This document shows, piece after piece, positions 2,631-10,504 of a DNA stretch of 10,514 bases. This stretch comes from an uncultured Ruminococcus sp. (GTDB lineage Bacteria; Bacillota; Clostridia; Oscillospirales; Acutalibacteraceae), in assembly GCA_905234305.1 (NCBI GenBank), contig CAJOHT010000024.1, forward strand, positions 11,163 through 21,676, written 5' to 3'. A model generated the notes under the pieces. The model was not told the DNA's origin and made no database searches. It saw nothing but the letters and a program-made list of their open reading frames with translations. The position numbers were made by a program, and so were the translations under genes. The stretch's first letter is position 1; each line of letters begins with the position of its first letter.

Positions 2631-5027
2631 ATGAAAACTGATAACGCTATTTATAATCTGCCTGTTTTACCGTTAAGAGGGCTTGTAGTTTTTCCGAAAA
2701 CTATGCTTCATTTTGACGTCGGCAGAAAACAATCACAAAATGCTATTAATGTAGCCATGAAGAATGATCAGCTTATTTTTTTGGTTTCACAGAAAAATCC
2801 TTCTGTAAAAGAACCCAATGAAGCTGAATTGTTCTCCACAGGGGTTATTGCGCGCATTATTCAGGTTCTTAAACAGCCTGATGACGTTACAAGAGTAATC
2901 GTGGAGGGCGTTAACCGCGCGACAATTAGTGAGTTTATAACTAATCCTAAATGTATGTTCGCTCATGTTGTTTCGATTGATGAGAACGATGATAAGCAAA
3001 CTGCCTTAGAGATTGCTTTAATTAGACAGGTAAAAGCTGCTTTTGAAAAGTATTCAAGGCTTATTCCAAAATTGTCCTCCGATGTTCTTTTCAGGATAGC
3101 TATGACCGATAAAGGCGGAGAATTAGCTGATTTTATAGCTGGAAATATTCTACCTGATTATAACGACAAGCAGCTTGTTCTGGAAACTGTTGACGTTTGT
3201 GACCGTCTTGAAACATTGCTGGATATTCTTACTCAGGAACTCTTTATTCTTAAAATAGAGGAACAAATAGGGGAGAAAGCACGGGAAAGAATCGATAAAA
3301 GCCAGCGTGATTATTTTTTAAGAGAACAGAAAAGCATTATAGAGGAAGAACTTGGAGAAACCGATTCTCCCTCAAGCGAACGTGACGAATATGAAAAACG
3401 TATTCTTGAGCTTCATCTCCCTGAGGAATCCGAAAAGGCTTTACTTAAAGAGTGCGCAAAACTGTCAAAAATGCCTTCGGGAAGCCACGATGTTCCTGTT
3501 ATCTGTACGTATTTGGATACCGTACTCGATTTGCCGTGGAATAATGCTACTAAAGATAATATTAATCTTAAGAGTATTGAGCGTAAACTTAACAAAAATC
3601 ATTACGGACTACAAAAGGTTAAAGAAAGAATTATTGAACAATTCGCAGTCAGAAAACTTAATCCCGAAATTAAGGGACAGATTATTTGCTTAGTCGGACC
3701 TCCTGGAGTCGGAAAAACTTCCATAGCCCAGTCATTATCGGAAGCTATCGGAAGAAAATCCGCCAGAATAGCGCTCGGCGGAGTCAGGGATGAGGCTGAA
3801 ATACGCGGTCATCGTAAGACCTATATCGGCGCAATGCCTGGCAGAATTATCAACGCCATAAAGACCGCGGGTACAAATAACCCCATAATCATTCTTGATG
3901 AAGTTGATAAACTCGGCGCTGATTATAAGGGGGATCCTACCTCTGCTTTACTTGAGGTACTCGACGCCGAACAAAACAATAAATTCGTAGATCATTATAT
4001 TGAGATTCCGTTTGATTTATCTAAGGTGATTTTTATTACTACGGCTAATGACGCTTCTCAGATTCCCGCACCTTTATATGACAGAATGGAGATTATTAAT
4101 CTCGACAGTTATACTCGCGAGGAAAAGTTTAATATAGCCAAAAAGCATCTTATCCCTAAGCAAATCAAAGAAAGCGGACTTGATTCTGATACCGTAAAAT
4201 TTGCAACTAAAGGCATTTACTCAATTATTGATTTTTATACCCGTGAAGCGGGAGTCCGAAGACTTGAGCAGGAGATAGCTAAGGCTATTCGTAAATTTGC
4301 CGTTAAATATGTTAACGGGGAAGAGGAAAAGATTAAATTTTCCGAGAAGAATATCGGAGATTATCTTGGAGTAAAGAAGTATACCGATGATGAGCTTTCA
4401 GAAAAAGATGAAATCGGTCTTGTTAACGGACTTGCATGGACTTCAGCGGGTGGAACACTGCTTCCGATTGAGGTAGCTGTTATGCAGGGAGACGGAAAAA
4501 TCATTCTCACTGGTTCCTTAGGTGATGTAATGCAGGAAAGCGCCAAAGCTGCAATAACCTGTATACGTTCCCACAGTGAGTTTCTCGGAATAGACTCCGA
4601 TTTCTATAAAAACAGCGATATACATATCCATGCTCCAGAAGGAGCGGTTCCAAAGGATGGCCCTTCAGCAGGCATTACAATGACTACAGCTATATATTCC
4701 GCGCTTTCGGGGAGAGTTGTTAAGCGTGATATCGCTATGACGGGTGAGATTACTTTAAGAGGCAGAATCCTTCCGATAGGCGGTTTGAAAGAAAAAACAA
4801 TGGCGGCTTATAAAGCAGGTATAAAGAAGGTTTACATTCCTAAAGCAAATGTTCCTAATCTAGAAGAGCTTGATGAAAGTGTAAAATCAGCTATTCAGTT
4901 TGTACCTTGCGAGCATTTTACCGAAGTTATTTCCGATGCTACGGTCGAGCCGATTATTGTTAAGGAGAATAAAAGTATTATACTGACCGATAATAATCCC
5001 AATACTTCAACTTCGGTTCGTCAGTAG
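2631..5027 (+). CDS. lon: Lon protease (LonA type, ATP-dependent endopeptidase)
   Basis: Lon degrades misfolded and selected regulatory proteins in the cytoplasm as a hexamer. The 798-residue length is typical of LonA. The N-terminal substrate-binding (LAN) domain begins at PVLPLRGLVVFP (residues 11-22). A coiled-coil/helical region follows and includes DYFLREQ (227-233). Walker A is GPPGVGKT (356-363) and Walker B IIILDEVDK (419-427). The C-terminal peptidase domain carries the Ser-Lys dyad, Ser679 in KDGPSAG and Lys722 in GGLKEK. By my count these fall at the same numbers as in E. coli Lon. AAGGAG at 2620-2625 lies 5 nt from the ATG. The gene ends 7 nt before ysxC. No membrane segment (LonB type) is present. 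Confidence 0.99.
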   Translation: MKTDNAIYNLPVLPLRGLVVFPKTMLHFDVGRKQSQNAINVAMKNDQLIFLVSQKNPSVKEPNEAELFSTGVIARIIQVLKQPDDVTRVIVEGVNRATISEFITNPKCMFAHVVSIDENDDKQTALEIALIRQVKAAFEKYSRLIPKLSSDVLFRIAMTDKGGELADFIAGNILPDYNDKQLVLETVDVCDRLETLLDILTQELFILKIEEQIGEKARERIDKSQRDYFLREQKSIIEEELGETDSPSSERDEYEKRILELHLPEESEKALLKECAKLSKMPSGSHDVPVICTYLDTVLDLPWNNATKDNINLKSIERKLNKNHYGLQKVKERIIEQFAVRKLNPEIKGQIICLVGPPGVGKTSIAQSLSEAIGRKSARIALGGVRDEAEIRGHRKTYIGAMPGRIINAIKTAGTNNPIIILDEVDKLGADYKGDPTSALLEVLDAEQNNKFVDHYIEIPFDLSKVIFITTANDASQIPAPLYDRMEIINLDSYTREEKFNIAKKHLIPKQIKESGLDSDTVKFATKGIYSIIDFYTREAGVRRLEQEIAKAIRKFAVKYVNGEEEKIKFSEKNIGDYLGVKKYTDDELSEKDEIGLVNGLAWTSAGGTLLPIEVAVMQGDGKIILTGSLGDVMQESAKAAITCIRSHSEFLGIDSDFYKNSDIHIHAPEGAVPKDGPSAGITMTTAIYSALSGRVVKRDIAMTGEITLRGRILPIGGLKEKTMAAYKAGIKKVYIPKANVPNLEELDESVKSAIQFVPCEHFTEVISDATVEPIIVKENKSIILTDNNPNTSTSVRQ

Positions 5028-6907: not shown

Positions 6908-6944
6908 AAAATAACGGCTATCTAAATGATAGTCGTCATTTTTT
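6906..6944. terminator. Bidirectional terminator shared by lysA-like gene and xer gene
   Basis: Arms 6906-6922 and 6928-6944 pair with one mismatch and one G-T wobble around a TAAAT loop. Six As begin the left arm and six Ts end the right arm, so it works as an intrinsic terminator on both strands. It overlaps the stop codons of both convergent genes. Confidence 0.85.
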
Positions 6945-7916
6945 ATGTTCAGGTTTAATATTTCCCAGCGGATTACTGTCGGCAGCTTGTTTAAGTTGTT
7001 GATTAGAAAGATGGGTATAGATTTCGGTTGTACCTAGATTTTCATGACCAAGTATATCTTTAAGAACTCTTATATCCACATCTCCTGTCTGATACATAAG
7101 CGTTGCGGCAGTATGTCTTAATTTATGGCAGGAGTAGCCCTGCGCGTTAAGACCGATTTTCTCCAAGTATTTATATACCATAGCCTGAACGGTTTTAGGA
7201 GACATTCTGTTATGATTACGGCTGATAAACAATGCGTTTTTGTCCTTAACATCATCAACAGGGCGTACCTCTTTATAAGCGTTTATAGCGTCGATACATG
7301 CTTTATTAAGGTAAATAACTCTTTCTTTATTTCCTTTACCTAAAACACGCATTGTATTATCATTACGTATATCGCTGAAGTTTAACCCAACAAGCTCAGA
7401 AAGCCGCAGTCCGCAATTTAAGAACAAGGTAAGTATACAGTAATCCCTGTAGTAATTATCGCCTTCTACAGCGTTTAAAAGCTCAATAGACTGCTCAAGC
7501 GTAAGATATTTAGGAAGAGTTTTTTTCTTTTTTGGAGTTTCTAAATCCTTCAAAGGATTAGTATCGATAATATGTTCTTTTTCTAAATATTTATAAAACT
7601 GCCTAAGGGAAGAGGTCTTTCGCGCTCTTGAAGCCTCGCTGTTATTACGCTCGTTCTTTATATAATACATAAATTCGTAAGTTTCTCTCAAGGAAACAGA
7701 AGAGATAAGATTTAAATCTACATTATCAATTTTAATCTCATCAAATTCTATATCATTACTTACAAGTCCGCGGCTCATATTAATGTATCTGAAAAAAGTA
7801 CGTAAATCAATATAATATTCATCAATTGTTTTTTTGCCGCGGCCTTTAATACCGTCCATATAAAGCAAAAATCTTTTTACTAAATCAGGAGCTTCATCCA
7901 TAAAGTTAACAGCCAT
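6936..7916 (-). CDS. Tyrosine recombinase, XerC/XerD type (chromosomal-style)
   Basis: This is a site-specific recombinase that cuts and rejoins DNA through a 3'-phosphotyrosine link. It has 326 residues: an N-terminal SAM-like core-binding domain (about 8-125) and a C-terminal catalytic domain. All six active-site residues are visible: Arg171 in CGLRLSELVGL, Lys194 in VLGKGNKER, His263 and Arg266 in HKLRHTAA, His290 in LGHENLG and Tyr299 in EIYTH. The GKGNKER, HKLRHTAA and LGH motifs are very close to XerD, so chromosome-dimer resolution is the likeliest role. It is about 25 residues longer than E. coli XerD, with extra sequence around 50-80. GAGGTGA lies 6 nt before the ATG. A dif-like inverted repeat sits 64 bp upstream. 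A phage or ICE integrase is the alternative. Confidence 0.9.
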   Translation of the reverse strand: MAVNFMDEAPDLVKRFLLYMDGIKGRGKKTIDEYYIDLRTFFRYINMSRGLVSNDIEFDEIKIDNVDLNLISSVSLRETYEFMYYIKNERNNSEASRARKTSSLRQFYKYLEKEHIIDTNPLKDLETPKKKKTLPKYLTLEQSIELLNAVEGDNYYRDYCILTLFLNCGLRLSELVGLNFSDIRNDNTMRVLGKGNKERVIYLNKACIDAINAYKEVRPVDDVKDKNALFISRNHNRMSPKTVQAMVYKYLEKIGLNAQGYSCHKLRHTAATLMYQTGDVDIRVLKDILGHENLGTTEIYTHLSNQQLKQAADSNPLGNIKPEHKK

Positions 7917-7979: not shown

Positions 7980-8009
7980 AATTATACAAAATGAATATTT
8001 TGTATAATT
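7980..8009. repeat. Perfect 13+13 bp inverted repeat, dif/Xer-core-like
   Basis: AATTATACAAAAT (7980-7992) and ATTTTGTATAATT (7997-8009) are exact reverse complements around GAAT. Read as a recombinase core, it has 11-12 bp arms around a 6-bp asymmetric centre TGAATA. The centre and right arm resemble the E. coli dif centre TGTATA and XerD arm TTATGTTAAAT as I recall them (5/6 and about 8/11). The left arm resembles the XerC arm poorly. It lies between the xer promoter and the probable mobile element. It also contains TATAAT on each strand without good -35 boxes. An operator or RNA hairpin is possible instead. Confidence 0.5.
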
Positions 8010-8043
8010 CAGGGGAGTGCTTTTTTAAAGCCCTCACCCTGAA
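8008..8043. repeat. Long hairpin next to the dif-like repeat
   Basis: TTCAGGG-GAGTGCTTT (8008-8023) pairs with the segment ending CCCTGAA (8027-8043) over about 15 bp, with one mismatch and a one-base bulge, around TTT. It abuts and shares two bases with the 7980-8009 inverted repeat. No T run follows on either strand, so a plain terminator is unlikely. Confidence 0.5.
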
Positions 8044-8064
8044 CTACAAGAGCCGCAAGGGCTT
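8028..8064. repeat. Alternative pairing element AAGCCCT/AGGGCTT
   Basis: AAGCCCT (8028-8034) and AGGGCTT (8058-8064) are exact reverse complements. The first copy is also half of the 8008-8043 hairpin, so the two structures exclude each other. A further ACAAAA/TTTTGT hairpin follows at 8065-8082. This arrangement could be a regulatory leader if transcribed; I recognise no known RNA family. Confidence 0.35.
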
Positions 8065-8147
8065 ACAAAATATCAGTTTTGTCTAGTTTGTGTCTAATAA
8101 AGCAGTTTCGCGCCTGCGTTCTTCCTTTCTTAAAATTTGTTATTAAA

Positions 8148-8200: not shown

Positions 8201-8311
8201 GTTAACACCTCGTTTTTGTTCTAGCGTATCATTTACCGTCAAGGATATATAAACGCTAGCGCGTCCTTGACTGTAAATGATTTGATTAAAAATAAAAAAC
8301 GAGGTGTAAAC
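8201..8311. repeat. Nested inverted repeat (17+18 bp arms) ahead of the small + strand gene
   Basis: The outer arms 8201-8217 and 8295-8311 match over 17 bp with one mismatch. The inner arms 8228-8245 and 8264-8281 match over 18 bp with one mismatch. The centre (8246-8263) contains the palindrome CGCTAGCG (8254-8261), half of which (CTAGCG) recurs at 8221-8226. The outer arms each carry CGAGGTGT, so the ribosome binding site of the 8313 gene is mirrored on the other strand. The inner arms each carry outward TTGAC, but no convincing -10 follows either one. Candidates are an origin or packaging hairpin, an attachment site of the element, an operator, or an invertible segment. Confidence 0.75.
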
Positions 8312-8312
8312 T

Positions 8313-8507
8313 ATGAAGTATTATCCTTATAACGATTATATGAAAAATATTCTATGTACTTACAAAATCTCCTATAAAACGTATATGGATTACGTCCATT
8401 ATGCGCTATCTAATAACTGTGCATATTTTGGTATGGAAATGCGCGGAGATTTTGAAGACCATTACCGCGATTTACTAAAAATTTTACCAGAAAATCGCTA
8501 TATATAA
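8313..8507 (+). CDS. Small tyrosine-rich protein of unknown function
   Basis: This 64-residue frame starts at an ATG 6 nt after GAGGTG (8301-8306), a good ribosome binding site lying inside the nested inverted repeat. It ends right before a strong terminator. I do not recognise it. Twelve of 64 residues are tyrosine, and there are two cysteines (15 and 36). The second half is acidic and helical looking (DFEDHYRDLLKILPE). There is no signal peptide or membrane segment. It is convergent with the integrase of the mobile element and is probably an element gene, perhaps a small DNA-binding regulator or directionality factor; that role is only a guess from position and size. Confidence 0.6.
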   Translation: MKYYPYNDYMKNILCTYKISYKTYMDYVHYALSNNCAYFGMEMRGDFEDHYRDLLKILPENRYI

Positions 8508-8551
8508 AATCAAAAGGCTACGGCGTTATCTCGCTGTAGCCTTGATTTTTT
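8506..8551. terminator. Bidirectional terminator between small gene and integrase
   Basis: Arms 8506-8525 and 8532-8549 share AAAATCAA and GGCTAC-GCG pairing with a two-A bulge and one G-T wobble. The right side ends in a six-T run and the left side begins with As. It serves both convergent genes and overlaps the integrase stop codon (8526-8528). Confidence 0.85.
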
Positions 8552-9197
8552 CTAACAGCCTGTCGGCTGTTTTTTCGGCAACTAAGTCGGCAAAAGTTTC
8601 CCAAAATTTGCCGTCTAGCGGGAGCCCTCGACTGTTCGCCGAGGACTTCCCCGCTTTTTCGTCATCTTCTAATCGAACGTGTGTTCTAAAATCATTTACA
8701 GCGCTGGGAACCTCGTCCAAATAGTCCGCAAAGGCATAAAGCATAGTTGTGCTTATATCCTTGTGCTGTAAATCTCTTTTTACGACAGCTAACCCGCCAT
8801 CTTTGAATTTTTCAACAGCATAAGTCTTTCTAGCGGAATGTGGCGCAAAATTCCCCTCTAATTCAAGAATTTTAGCGGCTTTTTTAACGTCTTTCCAAAC
8901 AGCCTGACGCGTTCTGTGCTTATCTTCACTAAGCCGACCGCGAAAAATATAATTCTTACCCGATATTTCGCAGAGCCTTTTAGCTAAATCTATACTCAAG
9001 ACCCGTTTAAAAGGCTTTTTAGTCTTGCTCGCTATTCCAACAAGCGTTCTTTTATTAAGTTGTCGAGGCGTAAGCCGTAAAACGTCATCAATCCTGAGTC
9101 CTGTTTCTAAACTAACGCGCAAAGCAAGCGCATTAGGGTACTGCATAACAGCATACATCTTGTTGTAAACGGTCGGATTTAAGTAAAAAGTTCTCAT
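8526..9197 (-). CDS. Tyrosine recombinase/integrase with catalytic domain only
   Basis: This 223-residue phage-integrase-family protein is probably the integrase of the mobile element. Active-site residues visible are Arg35 in TGLRIDDVL, a hairpin lysine (Lys58 or Lys60 in SKTKKP), His120 and Arg123 in HSARKTYA, His145 in LQHKDIS and Tyr154 in MLYAFAD. Only about 25 residues precede the catalytic domain, so the SAM-like DNA-clamp domain of normal integrases is missing. A 70-residue charged tail (about 155-223) follows the nucleophile. The missing domain does not look like simple truncation: the corrected rep frame stops 7 nt upstream of this ATG. The ribosome binding site is weak, so coupling to rep or transcription from the extended -10 at 9204-9212 may be needed. 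Confidence 0.88.
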   Translation of the reverse strand: MRTFYLNPTVYNKMYAVMQYPNALALRVSLETGLRIDDVLRLTPRQLNKRTLVGIASKTKKPFKRVLSIDLAKRLCEISGKNYIFRGRLSEDKHRTRQAVWKDVKKAAKILELEGNFAPHSARKTYAVEKFKDGGLAVVKRDLQHKDISTTMLYAFADYLDEVPSAVNDFRTHVRLEDDEKAGKSSANSRGLPLDGKFWETFADLVAEKTADRLLEKIKATAR

Positions 9198-9233: not shown

Positions 9234-10073
9234 CTAAAAACGCGCCGCCGTCGCAGGTGAAGCCATAATCACCGACAAAATCACCAAAAGAAACGCGACG
9301 CTGTAATACCAGCGCCCGCCAACCTTTTTTTCGCCTTTAGTGATATATTTGCCGATATAATTCGCGACAGCTCCCCTATCGCCGTATACTTCAATCGCTG
9401 TTGTGAACCCAAGTTTCCAATCTTGAATATTATATACGTTTCTGCAATCTTCAACTTTAAAGCCTGACCGCTTCACGGTGTCAGCCTTAACAGGTCTACC
9501 GCCGTTAGGTCTGATATATGTACCGCTATGAGTCAAATTTAAAACGTCGTTAGTCAAAAAATGAAAATGAAAACCGCCGCGCTTGTGTAACTCAGGTACA
9601 CCGACATATTTTAAACCGTTGCGGCGTACTCGGTTGTCGAGATAATTATTTAATTTTTTAATAATCGCGCTGTAATTGTTTCGGTCGACTTCATCAGGGT
9701 TAAGAGTAAGAGTAACAAAAAAATTCCACTCGTTACAGTTGATAAGGTCTAAAAGTCGATTTTTGGCGCGACGTTTCGACCTTGCAATATTATCAGCGGC
9801 GGTATTAATTATGATACGCTCACGTGGTTTAGTGTTATATAAAAGCTCAGTCATAGCCTCGTGATATGCCTCGGCTTCCTCGCGCTTATAATTGTGTCTA
9901 AGCTCTACACTGTCGGGATTGAATATATACCTGTTACAGCACATTTCCTCGACAAGTTTTAGCGAACCGTCGGGCTGTGGATAGAATTTCGACCGACAAT
10001 TATATTTTGCTTGAAAATCAGATTGTATTATCCCGCTGGGGATAAATTCAATATGCTTTTTTAAATTTTTCAT
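9234..10073 (-). CDS. HUH rolling-circle replication initiator, frameshifted near its 3' end
   Basis: Rep nicks one strand at the origin through a 5'-phosphotyrosine and starts rolling-circle replication. From the ATG at 10073 (AAGGGA just upstream) the frame gives 279 residues. Motif I is FVTLTLNP (119-126), the metal-binding HUH motif is His169-Phe-His171, and motif III is Tyr239-IGK-Tyr243 in NYIGKYITKG. This is the two-tyrosine pattern of phiX174 gpA and pC194-type Reps. After GGRWYYS (252-258) the frame turns into an unrelated hydrophobic tail. From about 9299 the -1 frame instead reads RVSFGDFVGDYGF and onward to a TAA at 9205-9207. One lost base (YYSG restored) would explain this. A frame opening upstream at TTG 10106 runs through the putative nick site and has no ribosome binding site. 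Plasmid, microvirus-like and filamentous-phage origins are all possible. Confidence 0.85.
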   Translation of the reverse strand: MKNLKKHIEFIPSGIIQSDFQAKYNCRSKFYPQPDGSLKLVEEMCCNRYIFNPDSVELRHNYKREEAEAYHEAMTELLYNTKPRERIIINTAADNIARSKRRAKNRLLDLINCNEWNFFVTLTLNPDEVDRNNYSAIIKKLNNYLDNRVRRNGLKYVGVPELHKRGGFHFHFLTNDVLNLTHSGTYIRPNGGRPVKADTVKRSGFKVEDCRNVYNIQDWKLGFTTAIEVYGDRGAVANYIGKYITKGEKKVGGRWYYSVAFLLVILSVIMASPATAARF

Positions 10074-10096
10074 TATCCCTTGACGGAATAACGTCC

Positions 10097-10108
10097 TTAA
10101 TATCAAGT
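10097..10108 (-). promoter_or_regulatory. Candidate double-strand origin nick site (phiX174-like)
   Basis: The - strand reads ACTTGATATTAA, identical over 12 nt to the core of the phiX174 gene A origin (recalled as CAACTTG^ATATTAATAAC). It also contains the CTTG^ATA shared with pC194. The predicted nick is between 10104 and 10103. It lies 24 bp upstream of the rep ATG. A short GACG/CGTC hairpin follows downstream. Confidence 0.55.
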
Positions 10109-10183
10109 AGTAATAGTTACAGAAACATTCATCTAGTTTAACGCCGTTTCTCAGTTTACATTCCTAAAAAAGTCAACTAGGAG

Positions 10184-10504
10184 TCAAACGTCATCATCCG
10201 GGGGTTCGCACTTACCCCCCTGCGCGGTTCGCGCAATAACCATTTTTGAAATAAACTCGCCAAGTGACACACACACATTAGTAAGCGGCTTATTCACCTC
10301 ATAAAGTTGTGCGAACTGTGCGAATTTGTATAACTCCCGCTGGCAGTCATTAGCTAGCTTAATCATCTGCGTAAAAGCCACAGCTTTAATCTTGCTGTTT
10401 TCTTGCCTATCGCTCTCAACTTCCTCGGGACTTTTGTAATTAGAACGTTCCCGACGTGTAGCCTGACGGTAAAATGAACCGTCGCCATATCCAAACTTGC
10501 TCAT
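10184..10504 (-). CDS. Hypothetical protein of the mobile element
   Basis: This 106-residue protein starts at an ATG preceded by GGTGAGA at a good distance (10505-10514). I do not recognise it. The N-terminus is Gly/Tyr/Arg rich (FGYGDGSFYRQATRRERS), followed by a charged linker. A helical stretch (about 38-90) contains two near-repeats FAQFAQL, and the tail is acidic (EPPDDDV). There is no signal peptide, membrane segment or zinc motif. It lies upstream of rep in the same direction, with a 77-110 nt gap that holds the candidate nick site. It may be a replication accessory or single-strand-binding-type protein, but nothing in its sequence demonstrates that. Confidence 0.6.
   Translation of the reverse strand: MSKFGYGDGSFYRQATRRERSNYKSPEEVESDRQENSKIKAVAFTQMIKLANDCQRELYKFAQFAQLYEVNKPLTNVCVSLGEFISKMVIARTAQGGKCEPPDDDV

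Follow-up and report, generated by a model that had tools for sequence, protein, structure and literature searches.

Elements that live off the chromosome-dimer resolution site are known mainly from Proteobacteria. The initiator gpA of phiX174 has two catalytic tyrosines at Y-x3-Y spacing, and the phiX174 origin has its binding block 3' of the nick. The CTXphi-type IMEX of Vibrio cholerae are rolling-circle elements that integrate at dif and form tandem copies (PMC4246890, PMC5357621; statements on cited papers refer throughout to excerpts of them). In CTXphi, attP1 with a centre of 12 bp and attP2 with a centre of 5-7 bp lie 90 bp apart and pair on a single strand, and integration is irreversible (PMC4246890). 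The element LME-1 of Legionella carries a dif mimic and integrates at the dif of a single recombinase, XerL; its att is identical to 22 bp of dif, without twin sites and a stretched centre in the excerpt, one junction is altered after integration, and excision is lowered (PMC9765430). Searches of the open-licence literature of PubMed Central listed no dif-integrating Rep-Int element of Clostridia.

The window analysed here is the whole stretch of 10,514 nucleotides taken from a contig (CAJOHT010000024.1) of an uncultured Ruminococcus sp. It contains, with a probability that we put at a little under 0.8, one end of a small integrative rolling-circle plasmid. We read it as a new kind of element, a dif-integrating rolling-circle plasmid that consists of a Rep and an Int reduced to the catalytic domain and is located at the host dif. 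Integration at the chromosomal dif, by which IMEX are recognised, is observed, in the window by one end: the element abuts dif beside xer, and the window stops at the contig end. The element is unusual because of its integration side, where dif, Xer, Int and a second dif-like site lie together.

The layout resembles that of CTXphi. The site with the long centre is the one that is split, and the arrangement of two dif-like sites, one with an extended centre, was met in L078, L080 and L244-L247 (loci and genomes are cited by L and G numbers), whereas the window itself shows dif and the inner site only. Unlike CTXphi, which has no integrase of its own, the element encodes Int (8526-9197), and its hosts are Clostridia with a Xer gene beside dif instead of XerC/XerD. 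It differs from CTXphi also in its initiator, which is of family PF23343 (or Rep_1, Rep_OBD or RepL in relatives), and in that no coat or Zot gene was recognised in the two-ended elements of 2.5-4.6 kb. With LME-1 it shares integration of a dif mimic at a single-recombinase dif and the alteration of one junction (PMC9765430).

Sequences and searches

Genes were located with profile HMMs. Relatives were collected from whole genomes (4 of 98 genomes of relatives and 22 of 394 of the order, both counts including the window's genome G000), from 66 named genome contigs identified via the neighbouring recombinase, and from 56 IMG/VR loci. Eight duplicate loci, matches below 20 bits and Rep matches below 60 bits were dropped. 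Int matches were kept only above 100 bits, which excluded L135-L139, from other phyla, and a single match in IMG/VR. There were 55 places with a Rep followed by an Int. A scan of the genome contigs with the window Rep alone gave no match. Most relatives are metagenome-assembled genomes; three short contigs, L078, L083 and L113, carry the labels of Paludibacteraceae, Fibrobacter or Bacteroidales MAGs, and misbinning is suspected for them.

Host dif and xer

A perfect 11+6+11 palindrome, ATTATACAAAA-tgaata-TTTTGTATAAT, is located at 7981-8008 and is the single site of its kind in G000. Beside it lies the gene for the host Xer recombinase (6936-7916, - strand), which by its matches in the genus is a core gene: xer matches at E <= 1e-3, some of them other integrases, were obtained in 56 of 60 genomes. 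Exactly one site of the window's arm type was present in 29 of the 60 genomes and none in 31. The site is conserved upstream of xer in the genus: for 28 of the 29 sites a xer match is no more than about 250 bp away, and in G040, the remaining case, no xer match is listed on the contig with the site. In species free of the element, the flanks diverge just beyond the dif site. When the palindrome rule was applied to 600,038 control bases, one site was returned, the dif of G227 itself, and a chance repeat was rejected on that count.

In two single-contig genomes of the order (G227 and G067, GC skew sampled at 20 places per genome), xer is located at the turn of GC skew from plus to minus, that is, at the terminus; the turn is clear in G227, where the palindrome lies beside xer, and the skew at xer is noisier in G067, where no palindrome was found by xer. 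Compared with the NCBI models, the host Xer reached none of the cut-offs for XerC (228 against 335 bits), XerD (205 against 330), XerS (139 against 267) or XerA (201 against 220). In G000 one xer match was obtained, but the search was too strict to recover even Int. Because a second Xer-like gene adjoins the first in some other hosts, a single Xer is not general among them. On this comparative evidence, the outer site at 7981-8008 is identified as the host dif, which now forms one end of the element.

At most of the empty host sites of the genus that were inspected, dif is adjoined by a G-rich box, TCAGGGGAG or similar. In the window the box is located at 8009-8017 and is present on the element side as well, which would fit an extended dif that includes it.

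Element ends and dif-like sites

The second, inner dif-like site is located at 8060-8087, 79 bp from dif, and reads ACTAGACAAAA-ctgata-TTTTGTAAGCC on the Rep strand; its core is that of dif, both sites having the form ACAAAA-N6-TTTTGT. A dif-like palindrome was found downstream of Int in 37 of the 55 Rep-Int places, and in 22 the far end was seen as well, delimiting elements of 2542-4594 bp. By the rule used, the palindrome was absent from 18 places, some of which lack flanking sequence and some of which do not (e.g. L044, L084, L107 and L118). When distinct Ints with at least 1.6 kb of downstream sequence were counted, a palindrome lay within 2.5 kb in 37 of 47, a Xer within 5 kb in 29, and either of the two in 39. 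The centre of the far-end site measures 7-10 bp in 18 of 22 elements and 6 bp in the other four. A second site no more than 200 bp from the outer site was detected in 25 of the 37 places, at the dif end in 21 and at the far end in four.

The dif arms of the 37 places are of 12 types. In the left arm of the far site, the outer five bases are those of dif in 20 of 22 elements, and in the right arm in 8 of 22; these outer five bases were not used in the search for far sites. Inner and far sites were sought with the dif core, so that the ACAAAA shared there is given by construction. In a less restricted search, L087 and L122 were found to have a changed core (ACTAAA and GCATAA) that is altered alike in dif, inner site and far site. 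This matching of arms is the best evidence that both partners would be read by the same kind of protein.

Between dif and Int, at 8203-8310, the window has a long imperfect inverted repeat, with arms AACACCTCGTTTTT ... AAAAACGAGGTGT and CATTTACcGTCAAGGA ... TCCTTGACtGTAAATG, which could serve as a single-strand origin or have a regulatory role as a hairpin. It precedes an ORF of 64 aa (8313-8507, + strand), for which neither Pfam nor PHROG gave a family above the cut-off.

Int

Int (8526-9197, - strand, 223 aa) is located downstream of Rep on the same strand and is a tyrosine recombinase with a Xer-type catalytic domain only (Pfam, 7.1e-17). In NCBIfam, it matched the C-terminal part of XerA/XerD only, below the cut-off, and the Foldseek matches listed for it are tyrosine recombinases. 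A PF23343-type Rep accompanies 48 of 58 distinct Ints. Int was also found paired with Rep_1 (L086, L116, L125, L129 and plasmids L246, L247 and L248), with Rep_OBD/RepB (L095, L101 and plasmid L250) and with RepL (plasmid L245), which indicates that replication modules are exchanged around Int.

It might be supposed that Int alone integrates the element, the host Xer and dif being a mere address and the dif arms having been copied since Int evolved from Xer. Residues R35, K58, H120, R123, H145 and Y154 are invariant in the nine Ints aligned, so that the catalytic set R-K-HxxR-H-Y is complete in 9/9, and the similarity of Int to the Xer catalytic domain would agree with such a descent. However, the N-terminal core-binding domain of Xer-type enzymes is missing from Int, and the arms track the dif of each host though the Ints are only 29-53% identical to that of the window. 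We regard integration by Int alone as unlikely, though it deserves serious weight. Judging from the arms, the host Xer would take part in integration of the plasmid; Int may be a partner, an activator or the sole enzyme.

Rep

Rep (9234-10073, - strand), a two-tyrosine initiator of HUH type, was assigned to PF23343 (REP_ORF2-G2P) with 55.8 bits (E 5.8e-15; curated cut-off 27.8), and to a rolling-circle initiation family by PHROGs; no Pfam match to the phage gpA family (Phage_GPA) was obtained at E <= 0.1. In the preliminary description, motif III of this protein had been read as Y-xxx-Y, and Y239-xxx-Y243 proved to be invariant in 16 of 16 aligned Reps, window included, together with H169, H171 (the HxH motif, H169-F-H171 in the window) and K246; the two-tyrosine reading therefore holds. 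The likeness to phiX174 that had been drawn from it extends to the enzyme type and the nick heptamer, whereas the family is a different one in Pfam. In the structure model (mean pLDDT 76.6), HxH is located on the strand 168-174 and Y239 in the helix 233-242. Foldseek searches with this model returned weak matches only, several of them named HUH nucleases and none at E <= 0.001, and no solved structural relative was found by sequence.

After RWYYS, the tail of the window Rep (9234-9320) departs from the aligned homologues in the manner of a small deletion with a change of frame. Motifs I-III are intact, and the catalytic motifs precede the disrupted tail. Because the C-terminal tail is disrupted relative to the homologues, the window copy may be impaired.

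Circular and tandem forms, and gene content

Terminal repeats of 77-141 bp were present in seven of the 66 genome loci. All seven are short contigs and represent circles, or else perfect tandems, measuring 2.9-3.6 kb. In L078 and L080 the inner site is followed after 124-125 bp by an outer site with a centre of 8 or 7 bp. L113 and L121 have one site each, L116 has one site with an 11-bp centre in addition to an unrelated-looking GCATAA pair, and in L120 and L125 no site was found under the cores tested. Tandem Rep-Int copies are present in L076, L084 and L110.

In PLSDB, 20 records have an Int match. Among them are seven circular plasmids of 2.2-3.8 kb recorded under 'uncultured bacterium'; the other records are of other genera (among the matches listed, 10 of the 20). 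Twin dif-like sites are present in four of the seven (L244-L247), a centre of 6 bp being combined with one of 10, 7, 9 or 12 bp, and the remaining three have no site under the cores tested. The accessions of the seven (HG796380 and six others) fall within the range deposited by a metamobilome study of the rat caecum, in which chromosomal DNA was digested with exonuclease and the expected PCR product was obtained for 38 of the 40 circles that the study tested (PMC3913684). The excerpt of that study counts phage-integrase genes and names no integration site (PMC3913684). These plasmids are free circles with the same Int, and they differ from the window in their initiators, which in the five run against Pfam (L245, L246, L247, L248 and L250) are Rep_1, Rep_OBD or RepL and not PF23343.

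Another proposal is that the locus is an integrative mobilizable element, in which Rep would act mainly as a relaxase at an oriT and transfer would depend on a co-resident conjugative system. HUH initiators can serve as relaxases. Integrative mobilizable elements with Rep_trans relaxases have been described (PMC7563843). Against this, Int is paired with several initiators of plasmid type (Rep_1, Rep_OBD and RepL), and the seven rat caecum relatives are typed as non-mobilizable by PLSDB and were obtained from exonuclease-treated plasmid DNA (PMC3913684). Mobilization as the main function of Rep is accordingly given a small probability.

Inside the 22 two-ended elements, the recognised genes are Rep and Int. 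The elements contain 224 other ORFs of at least 60 aa, 42 of which resemble an ORF of another element, and each of the twelve best-connected ones matches one other element only. Eight further ORFs of relatives were compared with Pfam; seven had no family and one (L087, 8519-8965) matched sigma-70 region 4. The distance from the far end to Rep ranges from 0.1 kb (L038) to 2.7 kb (L112, 4312-6995), with no recognised gene in between. Upstream of the origin, the window has an ORF of 106 aa (10184-10504, - strand) without a match in Pfam or PHROG at E <= 0.1; neither this ORF nor that of 64 aa has a relative among the collected loci of other genomes.

This content was also weighed against a filamentous prophage (Inoviridae), decayed or incomplete, with morphogenesis genes past the contig end. 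Among named phages, the nearest relatives of Rep belong to Zot-carrying inoviruses, namely Inoviridae bajarodino virus 76 and Dulem virus 66 (33-34% identity, 17 or 10 annotated genes), and CTTGATA occurs near the Rep start in 6 of 37 IMG/VR Rep loci with upstream sequence, in 5 of the 37 as TACTTGATA. In the two named viruses, however, CTTGATA is not found near Rep, and no Zot match was obtained in the window's genome, which is 92% complete. The 22 two-ended relatives of 2.5-4.6 kb show no widely shared ORF other than Rep and Int, and circular relatives measure 2.2-3.8 kb. An ordinary inovirus was rejected, the genome being without Zot and no widely shared further gene having been seen, and a decayed one is held to be quite improbable.

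Two loci with related Reps were observed apart from the Rep-Int elements. In L018 (G136:C24), a lone Rep is flanked by a pair of dif-like sites separated by 1575 bp, and a second site follows each of them; the locus is possibly a still smaller dif-flanked unit, perhaps in tandem. In L049 (G386:C7, 6107-14682), from another family of the order, three tandem units of 2906 bp lie beside xer and have no Int. Each unit contains a related Rep without CTTGATA, two small ORFs, an ORF resembling helix-turn-helix repressors and one more small ORF. The units appear to represent a second class of rolling-circle element neighbouring dif, one that lacks Int.

The predicted origin of replication

The sequence ACTTGATATTAA, located at 10097-10108 on the - strand, has no other exact match within the window and is separated by 23 bases from the ATG of Rep (10073). 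The preliminary description had likened these 12 bases to the phiX174 origin, including the CTTG^ATA step, and the comparison with NC_001422.1 bore this out: positions 4301-4312 are identical to the window 12-mer, no longer common run exists, and CTTG is directly followed by base 4306, annotated as the rep_origin. By analogy with phiX174, the nick is predicted between 10104 and 10103 (- strand). The heptamer CTTGATA was present in both origins compared, and in pC194 it reads TATCTTGATA. With respect to phiX174, the window has T at -2 where phiX174 has A, the 3' block is unrelated, and the origin is located upstream of rep, while that of phiX174 lies inside gene A.

Conservation was examined in the 47 Rep-Int places with at least 150 bp of upstream sequence (8 of the 55 were dropped, the upstream sequence being too short). 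In the stretch from -160 to +40 relative to the estimated Rep start, CTTGATA was found on the Rep strand in 44 of the 47, a count that covers the window and near-identical copies, and all 44 read TACTTGATA; counted by distinct Int (95% identity), the nonamer was present in 37 of 40. On the opposite strand of the same stretches CTTGATA was found in 0 of 47, and in a more distant upstream control (-560 to -360) in 0 of 26. In 200 Markov shuffles of the 47 stretches, the mean was 0.495 and the maximum 3. The claim of a credible double-strand origin of an integrated element in Bacillota is supported by this comparison.

In 39 distinct Rep-Int origins, chosen by CTTGATA alone and with no part in the selection played by the preceding bases, TA lies directly 5' of the heptamer in 39/39. 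Their alignment has a conserved GGACAnTATTCCGTCA-like block 3' of the nick core, of the form GGAC..TATTCCGTCA and near GGACAtTATTCCGTCA, whose spacing shifts by one base between groups. Because TA and the 3' block are both conserved around CTTGATA, the functional unit is estimated at about 29 bp, from 10109 to 10081 (- strand), and the putative double-strand origin is written TACTTG^ATATTAAGGACGTTATTCCGTCA. The TTAA tail that completes the 12-mer shared with phiX174 is not conserved among the Rep-Int origins. Of the 12-mer expected upstream of close Rep homologues, therefore, the TACTTGATA core stands and the tail does not, and the view that all 12 matching bases are meaningful was rejected, conservation being confined to the core and the 3' block.

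Homologues that keep Rep and lack the motif were looked for, and three of the 47 places are without CTTGATA (L122, L106 and L087). In L122 and L106, the nonamer has one mismatch and is followed by the same 3' block; L087, with a divergent Rep, has no clear variant and is the sole such case among Rep-Int places. Among the more distant Reps without Int (with upstream sequence, mostly on IMG/VR contigs), CTTGATA was found in 9 of 50, and it was not found near Rep in L043, L047, L049 and L018. The IMG/VR viral contigs L140, L141, L142, L145 and L146 have TACTTGATA 5' of Rep, followed by a different 3' block; the nick core may reach part of the viral PF23343-like Reps. That the 12-mer is a chance match without function, with which the variable TTAA would agree, is hardly conceivable for the core, since it occupies one place and one strand in 44 of 47 Rep-Int places and was upheld by the strand and position controls.

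Discussion

The sequence evidence for an integrative rolling-circle plasmid covers the conservation of the origin, the motifs of Rep and Int, the insertion at dif, the matching arms, the twin sites and the circles. In the mechanism proposed, Rep would nick TACTTG^ATA just 5' of its own gene, and its two tyrosines would drive rolling-circle replication in the manner of phiX174 gpA, the Rep coding strand being displaced by way of a single-stranded intermediate. The circular form would carry two dif-like sites about 50-200 bp apart, of which the outer, usually with a centre stretched to 7-12 bp, would be split on integration, and the twin sites would act as attP. Entry into the chromosome would occur at the host dif, beside xer, because the arms of the element are copies of those of the host dif. 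The reaction is likely to be catalysed by the host Xer, and Int would act as its partner or activator. Since the outer centre and the 6-bp dif centre do not match, dif would be restored at one end after integration, while the other end would retain a poor site; reversal of the insertion is therefore probably difficult. Replication off the chromosome could start from tandem copies.

The proposal has its weak points. The window copy shows one end only and has a disrupted Rep tail; 18 of 55 Rep-Int places are without the palindrome, and the far centre of 6 bp in 4 of 22 elements is not a stretched one. Three of the seven plasmids and two of the seven circular contigs have no site, and two further contigs have one site only. 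Minimum-energy folds were made for integrated ends, in which the outer site is almost a perfect palindrome. In these folds the inner site was paired with the outer site in 7 of 21 loci when the Rep strand was folded and in 9 of 21 when the other strand was, and in the window on neither.

A more far-reaching version is put forward tentatively, and we would sooner expect it to fail than to stand as a whole. According to it, the plasmids form a widespread class of 2-5-kb dif-integrating elements in gut Clostridia that arrived independently at a single-stranded attP like that of CTXphi, folded from the two dif-like sites; Int would join the host Xer as the second subunit of the synapse, turning a host with one recombinase into a system with two, and the initiator would have been swapped among at least four families.

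Each part of the element has a known analogue, in dif-integrating phages, in single-Xer dif systems and in two-tyrosine Reps. What is new to us is their combination, the group of hosts, a stripped-down Xer domain encoded by the element and the defined origin of a PF23343 Rep. For a group of PF23343 initiators, in which sequence searches gave no solved relative, the results predict an origin and define it by sequence, and they point to the dif and Xer of hosts whose recombinases are left unassigned by the NCBI models. The stripped-down Xer domain raises the question of a free catalytic domain that works with the host recombinase or activates it. The results also suggest that dif-exploiting elements are widespread in the Clostridia of animal guts.
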